This document shows positions 1-49,701 of a DNA stretch of 49,701 nt, piece after piece. The DNA lies in the IMG/VR virus record IMGVR_UViG_3300027826_000010, positions 1 to 49,701 of that record. The stretch is one strand, 5' to 3'. The position numbers and the translations under genes were made by a program. The stretch comes from a virus. Within the stretch, counting starts at the first letter, position 1, and the number at the start of each line of letters is the position of its first letter. Under the pieces are notes generated by a model. It saw only the letters and a list, made by a program, of their open reading frames with translations. It ran no database searches and had not been told where the DNA came from.

Positions 1-48
1 ATCTCGCTTGCCAACTTCCAGCTGCAGCAGGAAGTTGGCCAGCGAGAT
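1..48. other. Fold-back artefact at the left contig end
   Basis: Bases 1-19 are the reverse complement of bases 30-48 with one mismatch, hinged on the palindrome GCTGCAGC at 21-28. Bases 1-17 are absent from the other copy of this region, where the sequence before the matching point (49559-49575) is different and keeps the tail-fibre gene open. The simplest reading is a fold-back chimera at a read or contig end, so bases 1-17 are probably not phage sequence. A real terminal hairpin is less likely because the fibre reading frame continues only through the other copy. Confidence 0.75.
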
Positions 49-900
49 CTTGCGCGCGTAGCCATCGGCCGCAGCGTTCTGCACGAAGACGGCTCCGACC
101 GCTGGGACCTCGAGCGCCGTGTTGGAGTTGAGGTAGTGGGCAAAGAGATTGCCCACGTTGTCGCGCTCCGCGAGCGTGTTCGGCGTGGCAGCGGTGTCGA
201 TCGCGACCGAGAGCGGAGTCACCTGCAGGTTGATGTTGACCCCATCGCCCCAGACTCCGGTCGGCCCAGCTGCGCCGCCCTGCGGGATCGCGACGCCCGT
301 GCCGCCTGCGGTCTTCGCAGTCAGCGTGTGCGAGCCCGTCGTGTTGTTGACGAGCAGCCATTCCTGCGTGGTCGTCGGGAACACGATCGTCAGGTTCGAG
401 GTAAGCGCGCCGTTGAACTCGATGATCGGCTTGCGCCACTGCGCGGGCGTGAGCGAGACCGAGCCGCCGGTCAGCGCATTCACGGCCGCGATGCCGTAGC
501 TGATCCCCGGCACCCAGCCAGCGCCGCCGCTATCCGGGTTCGTCGCATTCGCGGCCGACTGGTTGAGCCACAGGCCCGAGCCATCAGCCATGCCCAGCAG
601 CGCGCCGACTGCGTAGCCGCTGATCGCGCCTTCGACTCCCGAATCAAACAGGTACGGCTGACCGGCCTGCAGCGCGAAGAGGTGCGTGCTCATCGTGTAC
701 AGGATGCCGTTGAAGTCCTGACCGAGCGGCGGCTCGCCACCCGAGATCTCCGGCTGCATCGTTACCGGAGGGAATCCGAGGTGCCACGACGCCGCATTGA
801 CCGGGGACACCGAAGTGTCCGGGATCGGGAACGTGATGTTGCCGCCTGCCGCTGCGATCGCGAAGGCTTCGGGGATGAATGCAGGAGTGGGTGCGCCCAT
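1..900 (-). CDS. Tail fibre protein, N-terminal part (gene crosses the contig ends)
   Basis: The frame opens with ATG at 898-900, three bases after the stop of the upstream baseplate gene, and stays open to the left end. After circularisation it continues at 49575 and stops at 49259, giving a 399-residue protein. The N-terminal 120 residues (TPAFIPEAFA..., FPPVTMQPEISGGEPPLGQD, FNGILY, ISGYAVG, PDSGGAGW) resemble the start of the fibre at 48512-49255, so the two are paralogues sharing an attachment domain. The middle looks like a beta-rich shaft. The C-terminus, encoded at the right end, resembles gp53-like fibre tips. The protein probably attaches to the baseplate and contacts the host surface. 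Codons left of position 18 come from the artefact and should be ignored. Confidence 0.85.
   Translation of the reverse strand, partial: MGAPTPAFIPEAFAIAAAGGNITFPIPDTSVSPVNAASWHLGFPPVTMQPEISGGEPPLGQDFNGILYTMSTHLFALQAGQPYLFDSGVEGAISGYAVGALLGMADGSGLWLNQSAANATNPDSGGAGWVPGISYGIAAVNALTGGSVSLTPAQWRKPIIEFNGALTSNLTIVFPTTTQEWLLVNNTTGSHTLTAKTAGGTGVAIPQGGAAGPTGVWGDGVNINLQVTPLSVAIDTAATPNTLAERDNVGNLFAHYLNSNTALEVPAVGAVFVQNAAADGYARKISLANFLLQLEVGKRD
18..143. repeat. Terminal direct repeat, left copy (circular-genome overlap)
   Basis: These 126 bases are identical to 49576-49701. The length is that expected from the overlap an assembler leaves when a circular or circularly permuted genome is cut open with a k-mer near 127. 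The repeat lies inside one continuous tail-fibre reading frame, which argues against a genuine short terminal repeat at a packaging end. Joining the ends gives a circle of 49,558 bp (18-49575). Confidence 0.9.
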
Positions 901-20704: not shown

Positions 20705-20907
20705 GTCCTCCACAGCAGCCGCCCGATCCCTCCATCCCTGCGGCGCAAGACGACGTGGAATCGGCGCCCGGCATAGTCCGGATCGCGGCACCAGCACACT
20801 TCCAAACGCCAGCGGCTAACTCGCTCGATCACGATCCGCCACGGGTGAGTGGGGATCCGACGATCGAACGTGAGACGGAATTCAGCTAGTACTTCGCGCC
20901 CGCTCAT
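20695..20907 (-). CDS. Small basic protein of unknown function
   Basis: 70 residues, rich in Arg and Trp, with a single beta-like core (WRIVIERVSRWRLEVCWCRD). It is supported as a gene mainly by its exact ATGA overlap with the portal stop and its 10-bp overlap with the next gene. No family recognised. Confidence 0.55.
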   Translation of the reverse strand: MSGREVLAEFRLTFDRRIPTHPWRIVIERVSRWRLEVCWCRDPDYAGRRFHVVLRRRDGGIGRLLWRTWH

Positions 20908-22496
20908 TCGTCCTCCTCGTCAACGTGGTCGCCCTCGCCCTTCCCGACTTCGCCATCGTCGTCGGGATCTCCACCGGCAGCTGCAGCCGCAGCGAGTTCT
21001 TCGGGCGTCGGCGCCTCGTTCGCTTCGGTTAGCTCTTCCGGCATCTCGCTCGAAAGGTTGTCGTAGCCCGAATCCGGGTCGGTCGCCACGCGATCGCGCA
21101 CTTCCTCCGGGAGCACCACACCGGCATCGATGTAGCCGACGTCCATCTCGCTCTGCGTCTTTTTGACCCGCGAGAGCGCTTCGCCCGTCAGCTGTTTCAG
21201 CGGCACGTAGTCGAACACGATGTCGTCGTCGATCTTGCCGTGCCGGTTGAGCATCAGTACGTGGAGCACCTTCGTGAGGTGGTCCGTATACAGCTGCTCC
21301 TGCGACGAGTTGATCCAGTCGTGGAACACCTCGATCTCGGAATCGCTCGACGCATTCAGCCCGGCGGGCGTGATGCCGGTCAGCACCACCAGCGGGAGGT
21401 GCGTCGGCGCTGCCATGTGCTCCTGCGCTTGCGCCTGTAGCTCGCTGAGCCCCGAGAGCGGGACCGCAAGCTGGTACAGCATCTCGCGTTCCTTGTCGGT
21501 CAGGAACAGCCCTTGGTTATCGCGCGTCTGCAGGAACAGCTTGATCCGCTGCAGCAGTGCGTTCGAGCCCGCTCCGTTCACGCTGCCCTGCAGGAGCGCA
21601 TCCATATCGGTCTGCAGGAAAATGATCGAGAAGTTCGAGATGAGTTTATTGACGCTATCGACCGTCTTGAGCCAGCGATCCACGTACGGCTGGATCAGCT
21701 GCGTGAGCGAGATTCCGCCGAAGTTATAGGCCGGCTTGATGATGTCCGGCACTTCCCTCGAGACGAAGCGCAGCAGTCGCGTCGCGTCGGTCTTGCGCCC
21801 GAGCACCATCCACGAATCGGGCTTGTAGAAGTTCGGCTTCGTCGGGTCGGTGCTGTTCCACACGAGCGGCGTGGTCCACATCGGCTCGATCGTCGTGAAG
21901 CCTCGCAGCGAACCCTTCGCGATCGTCTTCTCGTCAATCATCAGCGGATCGGAGGGCATGCCGCTATCGACATCGATGTAGATGAAGCCGAGCCCGTAGA
22001 AGCCGTCTAGCTCGGTCACCTTCCGGAAGAGCGCCTGAATCTTGTACTTGCGCAGGTCGTCTTCGAGGTCTTTGATCGCGTCGCCCTTGTTGGCCTTCGA
22101 CTTGGATTTGAGCGCGATCCACTTGCGCGTCATTTCCTTCGCCGTGGTCTCAGTCGGCTGACGGAACTCGCTGCGCTGCGCTAGCTCAGCGAGAAACGGG
22201 TAGCCGGGGAAGTAGAGACCGAACGCGCCGAGCCCTGCGGCGGTGTTCAGGAATCCGAACGGCCCGCCCGGTCCACCTCCGGGCGCATCGTCCATCGCCA
22301 TCCCCGGCTCGCTGCCGCGCACCGCTTCGGGGATCTTCGGCAGTGTGAGCGGGTGTCGGTAGGGGTCGGGCTGTGTCGGAATAGTCAGCCCATCCGGGAT
22401 CGCGAGCGCGTGGCGCTTCGGTCGCTGATCGACTCGCGGGGCTGGGGTCGTCGGGGTCGTGGGTGTCTTACGCCGAAACCATTTCCGCCAGTCCAT
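20904..22496 (-). CDS. Portal protein (DUF1073-like)
   Basis: 530 residues following the large terminase. Motifs typical of DUF1073-type portals include ELAQRSEFRQPTETTAKEMT, LFRKVTELDGFYGLGFIYID, NFGGISLTQLIQPYVDRWLK, and APTHLPLVVLTGITPAGLNA followed by DSEIEVFHDWINSSQEQLY. The portal forms the dodecameric vertex for DNA packaging and connector attachment. The N-terminal 70 residues are Pro/Arg-rich, and the C-terminus is acidic (GDPDDDGEVGKGEGDHVDEE). Confidence 0.9.
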   Translation of the reverse strand: MDWRKWFRRKTPTTPTTPAPRVDQRPKRHALAIPDGLTIPTQPDPYRHPLTLPKIPEAVRGSEPGMAMDDAPGGGPGGPFGFLNTAAGLGAFGLYFPGYPFLAELAQRSEFRQPTETTAKEMTRKWIALKSKSKANKGDAIKDLEDDLRKYKIQALFRKVTELDGFYGLGFIYIDVDSGMPSDPLMIDEKTIAKGSLRGFTTIEPMWTTPLVWNSTDPTKPNFYKPDSWMVLGRKTDATRLLRFVSREVPDIIKPAYNFGGISLTQLIQPYVDRWLKTVDSVNKLISNFSIIFLQTDMDALLQGSVNGAGSNALLQRIKLFLQTRDNQGLFLTDKEREMLYQLAVPLSGLSELQAQAQEHMAAPTHLPLVVLTGITPAGLNASSDSEIEVFHDWINSSQEQLYTDHLTKVLHVLMLNRHGKIDDDIVFDYVPLKQLTGEALSRVKKTQSEMDVGYIDAGVVLPEEVRDRVATDPDSGYDNLSSEMPEELTEANEAPTPEELAAAAAAGGDPDDDGEVGKGEGDHVDEEDE

Positions 22497-24091
22497 TAGA
22501 TCTCCTCAAGCAATTCGTCGGTGATCAGCATCGGGCCACGGCGGGGAGCGTACGCCATCATCACGGCGTCGGCCAGATTGGGCGACGGGGTGCCATCCGG
22601 GGCTTTGTTGATCAGCAGCTTCCCGGCAGTGGTCTGCGTGTACGTCGGCTGTGACAGTTCCACCAGTAGCTTCGGGAGCTCGGCTAGGCGCGGATTGAAC
22701 GAGACGAGCATATCGGCCTTGTAGCTCAGGCCGCTGACCGCTCGCCATGTGTTGTAGATGCACAGCCGCAGCCACCACCACGATTGCGCTTTGAAGTTGA
22801 GAAAGAAGTCCTCGTTCTTTCGACCCTCGACCATCTCGCGCCGGGGCTCGAACACCGACGCTGAGCCACGGAAGGCTTCGACCGCGATCAGGAATGCCGG
22901 GTTGCGGGTCTCGTTGATCTTGCGCGCTGCACCACGCACGTCCGCGCCGACGCCGTCAGCGTCGTAGCGCAGCCGTCGCACCTTCAGGTTGTCGCAGCCG
23001 AGGAACGCCCACTCGGTCGTCGCGTACGGGTCGCTCCCCTTGCCGCTCCACTGTTCGAGGTGTTCCAGCTGGAAGCCGTGAACGATCGCCAGCGCGTTCT
23101 TGTCGCGGCCCTGATCGGCCACATCGAGCGCTCCGCGTAGCTCGCCTGTGACCTTCAGCTTTAGCTTCTCGGCCGCACCGACGCACGCCGACGACCAGTG
23201 CGCGGGGATCACGATCCCCTCGACCGACGCTTGGAAGTTCATGTCCAACTCTTGCGCGGTGATCACCGGGCCCCACGCTTCGAGGAACTTGTCGTAGTCC
23301 TCCTGAGTGAATCGCGGGTTCTCGCGCCAGTGGAAGTTGAACCGCTGCCCGCCTTCGAGCACCGACTTCTGGTGCGCGCGCTGAGCGAACGAATTCGTCA
23401 TGCCGTGGACCGACGAGACGTCTTGCCGGCACTGCGTGTTCTTTGAGAGCGCAGCATCCACCAGCGAGTCGTGTTCGAGATACGCGGCCTCGTCCACGAA
23501 GTAGATCGAGGTTCGGCCACCGCGCCCGATGTTGTCTCCGATCTCTCCGATGATGCTCGATCGAGTGTTGGGGACGAAGATCCGGCGCTCGAAGCTGCAG
23601 GTGGCCGGGTCATAGCCTTCGCAGAATTCGCTGGGGATCCCATCGAAGTACGCGCGCCCCTTCTCGAACATCGAGCCCATGTCTCCGCGCCAATCGACCT
23701 TCTCTTTTTTGAACGAGCCCCAGCCGATCGCGACGTCCTTGTAGAGCACAGCCATCGAGATGCTGAAGGCCACGATCAGCCACGACACGCCGACGTCTCG
23801 CGACTTGACCGTGCAGCCGTACAGGCGGCGCTGCCACATATCGAAGGTGAAGTCGCACCACTCGCGCTGCCGGGGATCGAGCAGGAATGGCAGCACCACC
23901 GGGGCTTCGCGGCCGACGTTGCGCGGATCAACCGTCAGCCCCCAGTCGTTGATCATGTCCGCGATGTGCGTGCGGTAGTACCGCTTGAGCGCGCGTAGCT
24001 CTTTGGGGTGCGCTCGAATCCAACTGAGGCGGCGGGACCTCTCCTTCGCCGCCTCTACGTACCGATCGGCCGGTTGAACGACCGCCGACAC
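22496..24091 (-). CDS. terL: Terminase large subunit
   Basis: 531 residues with an N-terminal ATPase and C-terminal nuclease. A degenerate Walker A is at residues 96-103 (KSRDVGVS), and Walker B with the catalytic acidic pair at 195-202 (SIYFVDEA, D200-E201). The coupling region VSSVHGMTNSFAQR follows. Nuclease acidic residues are suggested by GALDVADQGRDKNALAIVHG and LRYDADGVGADVRGAARK. It packages DNA into proheads through the portal encoded next. The Walker A variant (Arg/Asp in place of the usual GxGKT) is common in terminases of this type. Confidence 0.92.
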   Translation of the reverse strand: MSAVVQPADRYVEAAKERSRRLSWIRAHPKELRALKRYYRTHIADMINDWGLTVDPRNVGREAPVVLPFLLDPRQREWCDFTFDMWQRRLYGCTVKSRDVGVSWLIVAFSISMAVLYKDVAIGWGSFKKEKVDWRGDMGSMFEKGRAYFDGIPSEFCEGYDPATCSFERRIFVPNTRSSIIGEIGDNIGRGGRTSIYFVDEAAYLEHDSLVDAALSKNTQCRQDVSSVHGMTNSFAQRAHQKSVLEGGQRFNFHWRENPRFTQEDYDKFLEAWGPVITAQELDMNFQASVEGIVIPAHWSSACVGAAEKLKLKVTGELRGALDVADQGRDKNALAIVHGFQLEHLEQWSGKGSDPYATTEWAFLGCDNLKVRRLRYDADGVGADVRGAARKINETRNPAFLIAVEAFRGSASVFEPRREMVEGRKNEDFFLNFKAQSWWWLRLCIYNTWRAVSGLSYKADMLVSFNPRLAELPKLLVELSQPTYTQTTAGKLLINKAPDGTPSPNLADAVMMAYAPRRGPMLITDELLEEI

Positions 24092-24404: not shown

Positions 24405-24794
24405 TTACTCCTTGGTTGGTTTTTTCAGCATCGCAAGATACGCGCGCATCGAGTCGTCGTCGGTCGCCTCTGCAGTGATCGCCGCCGATTTGATAGGCCC
24501 GCCATTCGCTCCCGTGATCTCGGTGCGGTTGGTCTCGCGCCAGTCAGCCTGACACTTGAGCCAGAAGCACACCGCCCACGGCTTCCCGCTCGCGGCAGCG
24601 GAATACGCCACGCGCGAAATGTTCGCATTGCCAGCCGCCTTCCCCTGATCCAGTTCCTTCCGATAGTGCTTGAGGAGCGTCTTGATCGAGATCGACATCA
24701 GGATCGCGATCGAGTGGTGCGGCGTGCCCACGGTGGCGTACGCGAGCACCTGCGTGCGCTGTTTCTCTGTCGGATCGTGCTTGGGGCGCGGCAT
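24405..24794 (-). CDS. terS: Terminase small subunit
   Basis: 129 residues with a basic N-terminal helix-turn-helix (HDPTEKQRTQVLAYATVGTP, SIAILMSISIKTLLKHYRKE) and a second half (ISRVAYSAAASGKPWAVCFW, LKCQADWRET) typical of small terminases that recognise the packaging site and oligomerise. The acidic C-terminus may contact the large subunit. Located just upstream of the large subunit, as usual. Confidence 0.82.
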   Translation of the reverse strand: MPRPKHDPTEKQRTQVLAYATVGTPHHSIAILMSISIKTLLKHYRKELDQGKAAGNANISRVAYSAAASGKPWAVCFWLKCQADWRETNRTEITGANGGPIKSAAITAEATDDDSMRAYLAMLKKPTKE

Positions 24795-25681
24795 CAGAGG
24801 TCACACGGCCCGGAGGTGTAGCCGGTCTTGAGCACCATGCCGTAATCGTCCACTCCGGTCGGCCACTCGATGTCTCGACGGCGCACCAGCGGCGTCTTCT
24901 GGAACGGCTTGTAATCGACGTAGTGGTGGACGCGCCCGAAGGCCCAGCGCAGCCGCGACACGTCGGGGTGCATCCGCACCTGCATCTGCGACTTCGCGAG
25001 CGTGCCTTCCTTCGCGTAGAACTCCGCCGTGTTGCCGCCCTTGATCATTTGGGTGGCGGTCTTTCGCTGCAGGAATGCGTCGAACTGAATCGTGCACCAC
25101 CCGCCCTTGAGCATGCGCAGCGAGAGATCCGTGTCCTCGTTGTAGCGACCGCGCCAGCGGAACGGCGTGTCGTTGCGGATCAGGTTGCACGAGTAGATGC
25201 GGGTGTTGAGGATGAACGGCGGGAAGCGGCGCTTGGCAGGGACGAAGGTCGCGTAGTTGGGGCCGGCCATCGCGACGTTCATGTAGCGGAGACAGAAGTC
25301 CTCCATGCACGCGAACGCGGTGCCGTCACCGATAAAGATTTTGCGGTTCTCGTGGAGCCGGTACCAGCCCTTGATGTTGTCGTCCATCACCCAATGCCAA
25401 TCGGCGCCCGCAGCGATCGAATGATCCCACGCGAAGTTGCGCGCCGGGCCGGGGCCCTTCGACTTCGTATCCCCGAGATCATCGAAGGTGTCGTACTTCC
25501 GCTGATACGCTTTGTCGAGCACGAGGATCTTGGCCGGGTCGATCACCTTCGCGTACTCGGCGTGCTCCTGTTCCTCGACCACGATGAAGTACGGCACGCG
25601 CGCCACTTCGAGCGCTCGCGAGGTGTAGCGAGAGTCCGCGCGGCCCTTCGACACGATGTAGATGGGGAACTGCGGGTTCAC
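24794..25681 (-). CDS. TET-associated-type glycosyltransferase (TAGT-like)
   Basis: 295 residues from a GTG overlapping the upstream stop as GTGA. The sequence has a GT-A-like pattern: IYIVSKGRADSRYTSRALEV, YFIVVEEQEHAEYAKVI, GPGPARNFAWDHSIAAGADW, then the acidic metal-binding motif WVMDDNIKGWYRL (D100-D101). Later come RGRYNEDTDLSLRML, which probably carries the catalytic acid, and KTATQMIKGGNTAEFYAKEG. This resembles the TAGT family, which in other phages adds sugars to 5-hydroxymethylcytosine made by TET/JBP-type oxygenases. No TET or DNA methylase is visible in this window, so the acceptor here is unknown: host-made modified bases, a virion protein, or another substrate. Confidence 0.72.
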   Translation of the reverse strand: MNPQFPIYIVSKGRADSRYTSRALEVARVPYFIVVEEQEHAEYAKVIDPAKILVLDKAYQRKYDTFDDLGDTKSKGPGPARNFAWDHSIAAGADWHWVMDDNIKGWYRLHENRKIFIGDGTAFACMEDFCLRYMNVAMAGPNYATFVPAKRRFPPFILNTRIYSCNLIRNDTPFRWRGRYNEDTDLSLRMLKGGWCTIQFDAFLQRKTATQMIKGGNTAEFYAKEGTLAKSQMQVRMHPDVSRLRWAFGRVHHYVDYKPFQKTPLVRRRDIEWPTGVDDYGMVLKTGYTSGPCDL

Positions 25682-25887
25682 AGCGGTTGCTCCACCGGGC
25701 CGTACGAGGCTCCGCAGCGCGGACACTCCCACCACTGACCGGTGCCACGCGAGACGATGCGCAGCGGTCGACCAGTGCGCGTGATCGAGCCGGGCAGCCA
25801 GACGCCGCAGCCGAGCGCCATGCATCCGTCCGCGATCGCGGAGTAGCCCTGATCCTCGCAGTCGGCTTCGAGCCCGATGGCGCTCAC
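25678..25887 (-). CDS. Small zinc-finger-like protein
   Basis: 69 residues from a GTG with GTGA overlap to the ParB-domain gene. It ends with WWECPRCGASYGPVEQ, one CxxC pair. An earlier cysteine group (LEADCEDQGYSAIADGCMAL, GCGVWL) could complete a metal site. Wedged between the ParB-like and glycosyltransferase genes with overlaps on both sides, it probably works with one of them. No family recognised. Confidence 0.5.
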   Translation of the reverse strand: MSAIGLEADCEDQGYSAIADGCMALGCGVWLPGSITRTGRPLRIVSRGTGQWWECPRCGASYGPVEQPL

Positions 25888-26531
25888 GGCTGCGCCTCCA
25901 CGTAGCGCTTGTCCACATTCACCTCGCGCTCCTTCGCCGGGTACCACAGGAACTTCGTTTGCTTCGTCACCTTCTGGTCGACCAGCGCAGCGAACGCAGC
26001 GACGTCAGCCTCGTTGCGGAAGTGCATGACGATCAGCTGGTAGCCCTCCTCGTCGCCGGAGGTGTACGCCGGCATCCCGCCCCACTCGGCCCGCGCATCT
26101 ACCTGACCGATGTTCTCGATCGACGCCATCAGCTGCGCGACCTCGGCATCGTTGAACCCCGTGACGCCTGAGAGTTCGACCGGCAGCGAGGTGATCTCCG
26201 CCAGCAGCAGGGCGTCGTCCCACCCGGCATTGAGGGCCAGCTTGTTATCCGCGATGACCAGCGCCGCCTTCTGCGCCGCGCTCAGGCCCGCGATGACGAT
26301 GGCCGGGACCTCGGTCATTCCCTCGAGCCCCGCCGCCGTGAAGCGCCCGTGGCCCGCGATGATCCCGTTGTGCTCATCGATCAGCAGGGGGTTGGTGAAG
26401 CCGAACTCCCGGATCGAGCGACGCAGCTGCGCGATCTGCACGTCGTCATGCGTCCGGGCGTTCCGCTCGTAGGGCGCGAGCGATGCGAGGGCGACGATCT
26501 TGTACTCGTGTACTTTCGAGGCTTCAGTCAT
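25884..26531 (-). CDS. ParB N-terminal-domain protein
   Basis: 215 residues. The first 110 match the ParB/Srx-like domain: VALASLAPYERNARTHDDVQ, AQLRRSIREFGFTNPLLI, then IIAGHGRFTAAGLEG at residues 57-71, VPAIVIAGLSAAQKAALVIA and DNKLALNAGWD. The motif is GHGR..AA, not the GERRxRA of segregation ParBs, and no parS-reading HTH follows. This places it with the ParB-like proteins often linked to DNA methylases in phages. The C-terminal 100 residues are unrecognised (YQLIVMHFRNEADVAAFAAL). A perfect parS palindrome lies 27 bp upstream of its start. Confidence 0.75.
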   Translation of the reverse strand: MTEASKVHEYKIVALASLAPYERNARTHDDVQIAQLRRSIREFGFTNPLLIDEHNGIIAGHGRFTAAGLEGMTEVPAIVIAGLSAAQKAALVIADNKLALNAGWDDALLLAEITSLPVELSGVTGFNDAEVAQLMASIENIGQVDARAEWGGMPAYTSGDEEGYQLIVMHFRNEADVAAFAALVDQKVTKQTKFLWYPAKEREVNVDKRYVEAQP

Positions 26532-26557
26532 GGCGATTTCCGTCCGACGCTCGGGGA

Positions 26558-26573
26558 TGTTCCACGTGGAACA
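26558..26573. promoter_or_regulatory. parS: Perfect parS-like palindrome
   Basis: The 16-bp palindrome TGTTCCACGTGGAACA is an exact match to the bacterial parS consensus (TGTTnCACGTGnAACA), in the form typical of Pseudomonas-type chromosomes. It lies in the 73-bp gap between the MazG/HTH gene and the ParB-domain gene. A match this perfect is not expected by chance in 50 kb. It could bind host ParB, the phage ParB-like protein, or another regulator of this promoter region. Confidence 0.75.
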
Positions 26574-26604
26574 CCAGTAAGGGGTTGATCTTACGAGGGA
26601 TCTG

Positions 26605-27363
26605 TCAGCGACGCCTGATCGGGCGGCTCAGCCCCAGCTTATGGGCCTGCGTATACAGCTGGTACACGCCCACTCCCAATTCGTCCGCTAGGTCGCTCAG
26701 GGTGCGGTTATCGCGCGCTGCAGCGTACTTCTCGGTCAGTTTGGCCTTCATTTCGGGCGTCCACGTACCCGGTGGATGGCCGGCCGGGCCTTGCTCCTTC
26801 ACCCATTGGATCGGACCGCGATCCGCTGGCCCCCTGAGCGGGTAGCACTCGTGCGGGCCTTCGTGACCGACTCGCAGGTAGCAGGGCATGGTCACGCCCT
26901 CGATGGTCTGGTAGCACCGCAGCAGGGGAGGGGTGGGGGTCATGGGGCGCTCCGAAATTGGGGCGGCAGGCCGGTCGTTGCCGGTTTCCTCAGTAGCGCG
27001 GAGATCATCCCGAGCCTTCACAACTGAGACCGCCCCTTGCGGTAATCCGATCAGCTGGCCGCGCTCGCGGGAGAGCGCCAGCATCCGTGCGATTTTCTCT
27101 GACTTGAACTCAAGGTGGGCCGTCACGTCCTTGGGAGTGATGGCCGAGATCAGGCCGGCGCGTTCGAGGAATTCGACGCAGGCCAGCAGGTCAAGGATCT
27201 CGAAGCGAAGCCGCTCGGCATTCGGCACCCGCTGACCCGGCTGGATCTCATCGCCACCGAAGCGCAGCTGCTTGGACGCGCGCTGCCCGAGCGCGGCGAG
27301 TTCGCTCGACACCTCGAAGCATTCCTCCATCAGCAGGATCAGGTGGTGCTCGTGCAGGTTCAT
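26605..27363 (-). CDS. MazG-like NTP pyrophosphohydrolase fused to HTH domain
   Basis: 252 residues. Residues 1-75 show the all-alpha NTP pyrophosphohydrolase pattern: EECFE at 13-17, then ExxD at 55-58 in RLRFEILDLLACVEFLE. The middle is linker-like with a possible metal knuckle (CYQTIEG, PCYLRVGHEGPHECYP). The last 50 residues form a helix-turn-helix (WTPEMKAKLTEKYAAA, TLSDLADELGVGVYQLYTQA) reminiscent of GcrA or SANT-like domains. MazG enzymes hydrolyse non-canonical dNTPs or alarmones. Fusion to a DNA-binding domain suggests a nucleotide-sensing regulator or a targeted enzyme (inference). Confidence 0.65.
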   Translation of the reverse strand: MNLHEHHLILLMEECFEVSSELAALGQRASKQLRFGGDEIQPGQRVPNAERLRFEILDLLACVEFLERAGLISAITPKDVTAHLEFKSEKIARMLALSRERGQLIGLPQGAVSVVKARDDLRATEETGNDRPAAPISERPMTPTPPLLRCYQTIEGVTMPCYLRVGHEGPHECYPLRGPADRGPIQWVKEQGPAGHPPGTWTPEMKAKLTEKYAAARDNRTLSDLADELGVGVYQLYTQAHKLGLSRPIRRR

Positions 27364-32000: not shown

Positions 32001-32282
32001 TCAGACATCAGCCGTGGCCGGCTGGGCGTCCTGCTGCTCGGCCTGCTGAGCCGACGAGGGCTCGGGAGGCGGGTAGATGTCGGGCCTGAAGTCCCACGGC
32101 TCGCGCGGGCGCTTGCTCGTCTTGGAGAGCGCTACGAGCCCTCGTACGTGCTCTGCCGTCACCCCTCGGTTACCCCAGTACTCGACGGCTTGGCGCGTCA
32201 CCTTCAGCGCTTTGGCGATCTCGTGGGACGTTAGCTCAGCGATCAAGGACCGGATCGCGCGGGTGGGGCGGTTTTGCTTCAT
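32001..32282 (-). CDS. Small HTH repressor (Cro/YdaS-like)
   Basis: 93 residues. Residues about 8-55 form a helix-turn-helix (IRSLIAELTSHEIAKALKVT, RQAVEYWGNRGVTAEHVRGL), in the style of Cro/YdaS-type regulators that sense 'YWGNRGV'-like contacts. The C-terminal 40 residues are Pro/Gln/Ala-rich and probably disordered. It lies at the divergence of the two genome-wide transcription units, next to an inverted-repeat operator. No Shine-Dalgarno is visible, and a -10-like TAGGAT lies so close to the ATG that the mRNA would be leaderless. Confidence 0.75.
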   Translation of the reverse strand: MKQNRPTRAIRSLIAELTSHEIAKALKVTRQAVEYWGNRGVTAEHVRGLVALSKTSKRPREPWDFRPDIYPPPEPSSAQQAEQQDAQPATADV

Positions 32283-35577: not shown

Positions 35578-35990
35578 GCGCTCAACACACACCCGGACCG
35601 TGGATCGTCTCGACGGATGCGCACGGGCGAACCGAGGTCCACTCCGAAACCCCATCGCGCGCTATGCAAACGTGGCGAGCCGAAGATCCGCTCAGGCCGC
35701 GCAACTCCTTCAAGGGCGTGCTGATCGCCACCTTCGGCGCGAAGTACAACGGCAGCGGTCCGCAATGGGGACCGCCGGTAACTCTCTCGCAGGACGAAGC
35801 CGACGCGAATGCGAACCTCGTCGGCGCTGCACCCGATCTCCTCGAAGCGCTTGAGGAATTGGCCGAGCCCGCTCTGGGACCGAAGGGCGCCTGCCACGTC
35901 GGTATCTGCAGCGAAGCCATGTGTGGCCGCTGCAAGCGCCACGCACGAGCGCGCGCTGCGATCGAGAAAGCCAAGGGGGTGCAACCGTGA
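35574..35990 (+). CDS. HTPGPW/AAPDLL-family protein with zinc-knuckle insert, copy 2
   Basis: 138 residues. It starts [19 protein letters not shown] and carries [19 protein letters not shown], the family signature. Unlike copies 1 and 3 it has a Cys/His cluster before its last helix ([20 protein letters not shown]), a possible metal knuckle. The C-terminus [11 protein letters not shown] matches the AAIDKAR ending of copy 3. Confidence 0.7.
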
Positions 35991-36256
35991 AGCCTCCCAC
36001 TCCGATGCGGATCGCCAAAGTCAACGGCGTCATTCACATCATCGGCTCCGGCGGCGGATCGCTTGCCACTACCGACTACCCGAGCCACGCCGATTTCCTC
36101 GTTCTCGCCGGCAACGCCTACGAGGACATGCTGAAGGCGCTGATCGCGGCGCAGCTGTGGATGGACACCGGGACCGGCGGGATGACCGCCCGCGCCAACA
36201 CCTACCAACTGATCGAGCACGCGATCGCGCGAGCGAAGGGAGTGAAGTCATGCTGA
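35987..36256 (+). CDS. Divergent AAPDLL-like small protein
   Basis: 89 residues from a GTG overlapping the preceding stop. It lacks HTPGPW, but the [20 protein letters not shown] helix and the closing [10 protein letters not shown] helix parallel the LIAAAPDLL...AIEKAKG layout of its neighbours. It may be a decayed or specialised family member. Its end overlaps the csrA start by 7 bp. Confidence 0.55.
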
Positions 36257-36429
36257 TCCTGACACGCCGCGTTGGCGAGACCATCACCATCGGGCCCGAG
36301 ATCACCGTCACGGTGCTCGGCGTCAAGGGGAACCAAGTGCGCATCGGGGTCAATGCCCCGCGCGATGTCGAGGTGCATCGCGAGGAAGTCGCAGAGCGCA
36401 TCCGCCTCGAACAGGAGGGGCGCGCATGA
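36250..36429 (+). CDS. csrA: CsrA/RsmA-like carbon storage regulator
   Basis: 59 residues with GGGAG eight bases upstream. The sequence [20 protein letters not shown], then [17 protein letters not shown] and [18 protein letters not shown], is a full CsrA. It includes the RNA-contacting N-terminal LTRR and the VHREE arginine (R44). The core is almost identical to gammaproteobacterial CsrA. CsrA dimers bind GGA motifs in 5' leaders and block or alter translation, so the phage copy could rewire host metabolism or phage translation. It lies within the AAPDLL-family cluster. Confidence 0.93.
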
Positions 36430-49258: not shown

Positions 49259-49701
49259 TTAGTGTCCTAGTGCGATCCAGAAGCCGCCCGCGAGCGTGCC
49301 GACGTGGCCGTCCACCGCATCGAACACGACGGACATACCGGTCTTGCTCGGCGCGGGCGTCGAGCACATAAAGCCGGTGCCGGCCGAGGAGAACGACGAG
49401 CGAAAAGTCCAGCCGCCGCCCGCGAGTGGCGGTGCGGTCGGGAACGGGATCGGGAAGGTGATCGGCACGTTCGACGGCGTGCCGCCCGCCTGCTGCGCAT
49501 AGCCGAACTGGATGATGTACCCGTTCGGAAAGATCAGCGCGGTTCCGTTGGAGTTCGAGACGACCGAGCCTGCCGCCAGCTGCAGCAGGAAGTTGGCCAG
49601 CGAGATCTTGCGCGCGTAGCCATCGGCCGCAGCGTTCTGCACGAAGACGGCTCCGACCGCTGGGACCTCGAGCGCCGTGTTGGAGTTGAGGTAGTGGGCA
49701 A
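49259..49701 (-). CDS. Tail fibre protein, C-terminal part (continues from 1-900)
   Basis: The frame is open from the right end and stops at 49259; it continues the fibre that starts at 900 through the 126-bp repeat. The tip (GYIIQFGYAQQAGGTPSNVP, FPIPFPTAPPLAGGGWTFRS, VDAVDGHVGTLAGGFWIALG-type end) resembles the gp53-like C-terminal domain of phage fibres: an NGxxIQFG strand, 'ITFPIPFP', then an aromatic FWIALGH end. This domain usually trimerises and binds the receptor. Confidence 0.85.
   Translation of the reverse strand, partial: AHYLNSNTALEVPAVGAVFVQNAAADGYARKISLANFLLQLAAGSVVSNSNGTALIFPNGYIIQFGYAQQAGGTPSNVPITFPIPFPTAPPLAGGGWTFRSSFSSAGTGFMCSTPAPSKTGMSVVFDAVDGHVGTLAGGFWIALGH
49576..49701. 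repeat. Terminal direct repeat, right copy
   Basis: Identical to 18-143. Upstream of 49576 the fibre gene reads through normally, whereas upstream of 18 the sequence is a fold-back, so this copy shows the true flank. Confidence 0.9.

Follow-up and report, generated by a model that had tools for sequence, protein, structure and literature searches.

The window, by which we mean the whole 49,701-nucleotide stretch of viral DNA analyzed here, carries a perfect parS palindrome that is probably a loading site for the ParB protein of the host, used by the phage for hitch-hiking on host segregation. Comparable parS sites were found to recur strongly and non-randomly in unrelated phages without a canonical ParB. 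The palindrome, TGTTCCACGTGGAACA, spans positions 26558 to 26573 and has no assigned strand. It matches the 16-bp chromosomal-type motif TGTTYCACGTGRAACA exactly, which confirms the flawless parS recorded in the initial annotation; it is a host-type site. No other match with up to three mismatches exists in the whole window, dinucleotide shuffles of which yielded 0.11 such matches. The chance expectation for an exact match to any of the four TGTTYCACGTGRAACA forms was 1e-5 to 4e-5 per window (Markov order 1 to 3). The site is located in a 73-bp intergenic spacer (26532 to 26604, no strand) flanked by two minus-strand genes, about 1.8 kb upstream of a terminase small subunit-like gene. Its distance to the ATG of the neighboring gene for a 215-aa ParB-like protein was measured as 26 bp, instead of the 27 bp given before. 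A search around the site gave no sigma-70-like promoter.

The genomic context was evaluated for genes that could accompany such a site. Window positions 18 to 143 are identical to the last 126 bases (49576 to 49701), and this overlap of the contig ends indicates an essentially complete genome of ~49.56 kb, so that the absence of integrase and ParA genes carries meaning. Together with the bases directly after them, positions 1 to 17 make up a hairpin-like artefact. The gene order on the minus strand is a conserved 252-aa gene (26605 to 27363), whose N-terminal part resembles an NTP pyrophosphohydrolase family, the parS spacer, the ParB-like gene (25884 to 26531), a TAGT-type glycosyltransferase (24794 to 25918), a terminase small subunit-like protein (24405 to 24794), the terminase large subunit TerL (22496 to 24091) and the portal protein (20904 to 22496). 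A role of the glycosyltransferase in DNA-base modification is probable, and its location beside the gene for the ParB-like protein points to hypermodified DNA bases; the profile PF20515 for the TET/JBP partner of this enzyme matched no control genome and was thus uninformative here. The phage had been described as devoid of integrase and ParA, and searches of the near-complete genome for tyrosine integrases (PF00589), serine recombinases (PF00239) and ParA-type ATPases (PF13614, PF01656) indeed returned no match. In the window, neither the integrase expected of an integrating temperate phage nor the ParA ATPase and canonical ParB of a self-contained ParABS system were detected. The repressor-like HTH gene mentioned in the same description was also recovered and encodes a Cro/YdaS-like HTH regulator (32001 to 32282, minus strand), which is a possible lysogeny switch; a plasmid-like lysogenic state of this phage is likewise possible. 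The palindrome is unlikely to be the operator of this HTH repressor, as the genome contains only one copy. A CsrA-like regulator domain was detected at the C-terminal end (residues 148 to 203) of the open frame at 35809 to 36429.

Eight bacterial genomes with related prophages (51.8 Mb) were scanned for the site. Exact TGTTYCACGTGRAACA motifs were present at 18 positions, 17 of which are no more than about 6 kb away from a strongly matching chromosomal parB, and the exact motif is thus almost without background in these genomes. The remaining site belongs to a Bradyrhizobium prophage (L205) related to the window phage and has the same form as the parS of that host. The exact 16-mer of the window was located near parB in Achromobacter and in Bordetella, so that it represents a parS form used by chromosomes of candidate host groups. 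Related prophages were found in Achromobacter, Bordetella, Paraburkholderia, Rhizobium, Bradyrhizobium and others, which makes a proteobacterial host of the window phage likely. Binding of ParB to such 16-mers is established for chromosomes.

The protein encoded next to the site does not have the features of a canonical parS reader. Its annotation as a ParB N-terminal-domain protein was borne out by a match to PF02195 (30.6 bits, cut-off 26.3) and by its assignment to phrog_620/15396. Sequence matches were obtained to ParB/Noc, and structure matches of the AlphaFold2 model comprised nucleotide-bound ParB and Noc as well as sulfiredoxin, in line with a CTPase/sulfiredoxin fold; the model had a mean pLDDT of 66 and a pTM of 0.45 and was confident for the N-domain only. 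The canonical ParB profile TIGR00180 scored 34.3 bits, below its cut-off of 58.45, and was covered only at positions 5 to 98 of 186. In Box II, GHGR replaces GERR, and 16 relatives showed GHGR or GHTR with an invariant arginine. The claim that this protein lacks both the GERR box and the parS-reading HTH is thereby upheld, and by sequence it is an orphan ParB-fold protein. One alternative to a host reader is that protein and site form a minimal ParB-parS pair in which the protein reads the site itself, perhaps with no need for ParA, as is the case in staphylococci and streptococci. The 26-bp adjacency and the clear ParB/Noc fold of the N-domain favor such a pair. In addition, parS-like sites occur within some kb of ParB-like genes in several marine loci and in the prophage L205 (1.8 kb before the gene in L205). 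The missing HTH, the TIGR00180 score and the restriction of the confident model to the N-domain argue against it. The phage protein is hence not likely to be the reader of parS, and the comparison with relatives described below makes the pair very improbable and led to its rejection as the main reading.

Relatives were collected by TerL (7 viral loci, none in bacterial genomes) and by portal protein (66 viral and 23 genomic loci), and none of either set spans the parS junction at high identity. The only relative that covers the junction is L168, with no closer one than about 50-75% protein identity. Its identity to the window is 66% for TerL, 69% for the glycosyltransferase and 49% for the ParB-like protein, and the C-terminus of the 252-aa upstream neighbor is conserved as well. 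In L168 this upstream gene ends in GIRRR followed by the stop codon, the stop overlaps the ATG of the ParB-like gene, and both spacer and parS are missing. No parS with up to three mismatches was found in the whole 49.3-kb L168 record. Among 95 TerL and portal relatives (1.39 Mb), a single exact parS besides that of the window was present, namely the one in L205. Conversely, among the 120 viral loci listed with the exact 16-mer, only one had a member of the ParB-like family nearby. The parS site is thus separable from the adjacent ParB-like gene, and the functional link between the two that had been implied at first is not supported, given the retention of the gene in L168, this low co-occurrence and the rarity of parS among the TerL and portal relatives. 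It should not be assumed that parS and a ParB-domain gene of a phage work together as a single system. In marine loci, an enrichment of parS around ParB-like genes of phages was also considered, and it concerned few lineages and was not general.

Searches of two virus collections revealed that the site is found far beyond these relatives. In IMG/VR, whose contigs may include misclassified bacterial DNA, TGTTCCACGTGGAACA was present in at least 120 stretches from 97 sequence clusters with a locus G+C between 0.23 and 0.71, whereas the control palindromes TGTTCGACGTCGAACA and TGTTACACGTGTAACA were present in 11 stretches and in 4 stretches on 3 contigs, respectively. Cultured phages were searched with 18-base queries for which matches of at least 16 contiguous bases were reported, so that some matches cover only 15 parS bases out of 16 together with a single base of the flank (e.g. 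mycobacteriophages, Bitten and PHB09). This search yielded 108 records for the C/G form, 315 for the T/A form and 164 for the mixed form of parS, compared with 1 and 0 records for the controls TGTTCGACGTCGAACA and TGTTACACGTGTAACA; these are raw counts of records that were not dereplicated, taken regardless of phylogeny. Above the cut-off, no canonical ParB was detected in any of 97 parS-bearing virus records scanned, many of which are fragments, and one weak match was seen. The possibility that the palindrome of the window is a chance or hitch-hiking sequence without function would agree with its absence at the locus in L168, the sole relative covering the junction, but an expectation of about 1e-5 per window and the enrichment over control palindromes in both collections make this highly improbable.

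The cultured carriers include phages of Pseudomonas, Stenotrophomonas, Mycobacterium, Bacillus, Listeria, Gordonia, Microbacterium and Arthrobacter as well as microviruses. Escherichia and Salmonella do not rank among the ten commonest names in any of the three cultured-phage lists. To our knowledge, these two genera have no chromosomal ParABS system. Klebsiella (10 records) is an exception, represented mostly by jumbo phages in which a gene contains the site. Most of the Pseudomonas phages inspected with annotation have it in an intergenic position, namely Lana, ventosus, KoPa-4 and Roomu-2 (the last two with an exact parS each), Bitten, UAVern, PHB09, SYP and, within its terminal repeat, phiPsa374, while it touches a gene in KPP25/phiR18. 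Around parS, Ep020 and ventosus match over an island of 40 bp, and UAVern and KoPa-4 each have a parS close to one shared gene, though not at the same position. This looks like maintained presence with positional turnover. Several cultured carriers, phi29 as the published case of host ParB use among them, come from groups that are considered strictly virulent, and parS therefore does not imply lysogeny.

Further features of individual parS-bearing records were noted. Many cultured phages have parS near the record ends or in terminal repeats, as in phiPsa374 (position 388), DSS3P8 (840), vB_AciJM_313 (86), SYP (294) and Gordonia phage Woes (71439 of 73752). Exact or near-exact parS palindromes were also seen in Microviridae and gokushovirus records, which are ssDNA genomes of about 5-7 kb. 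Gene starts coincide in part with parS-like palindromes in the loci L138, L141, L143, L131, L150 and L018, and the proteins encoded there begin with MFHVE or MFHME/MFHMK, a feature that recurs in unrelated phages.

As many unrelated phages carry parS, the window phage most likely borrows the ParB of its host. The recruitment of host ParB had already been suggested in the initial annotation, and host ParB emerges as the likely reader from the sequence data, because the phage protein lacks the HTH and GERR elements and neither ParA nor an integrase was found. The chromosomal ParB of an infected or lysogenized cell would bind the 16-mer, load as a CTP-dependent clamp and slide into the neighboring phage DNA. 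The clamp cycle of ParB is summarized elsewhere (PMC12704722). The phage molecule would thereby become a client of the host segregation machinery, that is of ParA and, where present, SMC, and might be given a position in the cell and, if lysis is delayed, be inherited at division. Several observations count against this reading. The site is absent at the locus in L168 and rare among the TerL and portal relatives (1 in 95), and the window has a single copy compared with four in phi29. Modified bases linked to the glycosyltransferase could in addition block ParB at the CpG core, and some phages have the palindromes in multiple copies shortly before genes or promoter-like motifs, an arrangement typical of operators.

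Two further uses of the site by the phage have to be weighed. First, and as the main rival reading, the palindrome could be an operator instead of a centromere, at which host ParB or a phage repressor silences or tunes the operon of ParB-like protein, glycosyltransferase, terminase and portal. The short distance of 26 bp from the site to the ATG at which the packaging operon begins suits this explanation, and raised ParB levels potentiate the repression of promoters near parS3 and parS4 in P. aeruginosa, according to the title of PMC5521831. Two IMG/VR records point in the same direction. The 28.9-kb record L105 contains five exact copies of TGTTCCACGTGGAACA within 11.5 kb (4324, 6308, 8135, 9161 and 10442); most of them lie in intergenic DNA, and a TGCTACG-like promoter motif recurs behind them together with a ggacaac element. 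A 23-kb record (L287/L290, IMGVR_UViG_3300037423_000235) contains eight copies of the parS variant TGTTACACGTGTAACA, several of them 12-16 bp before gene starts in the manner of a phage-specific operator. However, the window has just this one copy, without further copies at the HTH gene or at other promoters, a search of the region detected no sigma-70-like promoter, and L168 runs the same operon without the palindrome, so that a regulatory role is rather unlikely here. Second, the site could act as a decoy that titrates host ParB or draws SMC/condensin away, and thus disturbs segregation or aids takeover of the cell. A decoy would suit the virulent parS phages, in which replicated genomes would presumably amplify the copies, but one site per genome offers weak titration and this role is improbable.

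The reading of the palindrome as a docking site for host ParB can be extended to the other carriers. There is about an even chance that host-type parS is a widespread phage cis-element, repeatedly gained and lost in phages of ParABS-carrying Pseudomonadota, Actinomycetota and Bacillota hosts, virulent phages included, and employed by genomes that lack partition proteins for host-ParB positioning, inheritance or gene control, with phi29 as one case of a general strategy. The window would then be an instance of this element in which a 73-bp parS cassette was gained at the packaging operon. If this is true, a 16-bp sequence would suffice for docking on the host segregation clamp and would enable carriage without integration, be it in pseudolysogeny, by inheritance through division or by spore entrapment, and host ParB would be a new host factor in infection. 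As the tractable hosts Pseudomonas and Bacillus have phages with and without the site, the question is directly testable. A phage with host-type parS is known already from phi29, and no description of such sites in phages beyond phi29, and thus of the breadth observed here, was found in the part of the open-access literature covered.

Comparison with known systems places the window closest to the phi29 type, in which exact parS sites reside in a phage without its own canonical ParB or ParA. The phi29 genome contains four exact parS, and published work attributes the trapping of this genome in spores to host Spo0J/ParB (PMC9437464, citing Meijer 2005). In phi29 the sites have the TGTTTCACGTGGAACA form and the host sporulates, whereas the window has one TGTTCCACGTGGAACA and a host that is probably a non-sporulating proteobacterium. 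The identical 16-mer serves as chromosomal parS of Proteobacteria near parB in Achromobacter and Bordetella, but the copy in the window is phage-borne, single and away from a chromosomal parB or oriC. A parS-type site beside a ParB-domain gene is also a feature of extrachromosomal prophages that encode a parABS system themselves, such as P1 and those of actinobacteriophages; in the window, by contrast, no ParA or canonical ParB was found and the site is of host type instead of the phage's own. The adjacent gene belongs to the same broad class as the orphan ParB-CTPase-fold phage proteins surveyed in PMC12704722, with an N-domain above the PF02195 gathering score and no canonical HTH; that survey is about proteins, and the passages available from it draw no link to host-type parS. 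Finally, phages with CtrA or Spo0A sites (PMC9437464) carry sites for a host DNA-binding protein through which their cycle is tied to the host cell cycle; in the window this protein would, unlike in those phages, be the segregation clamp ParB.
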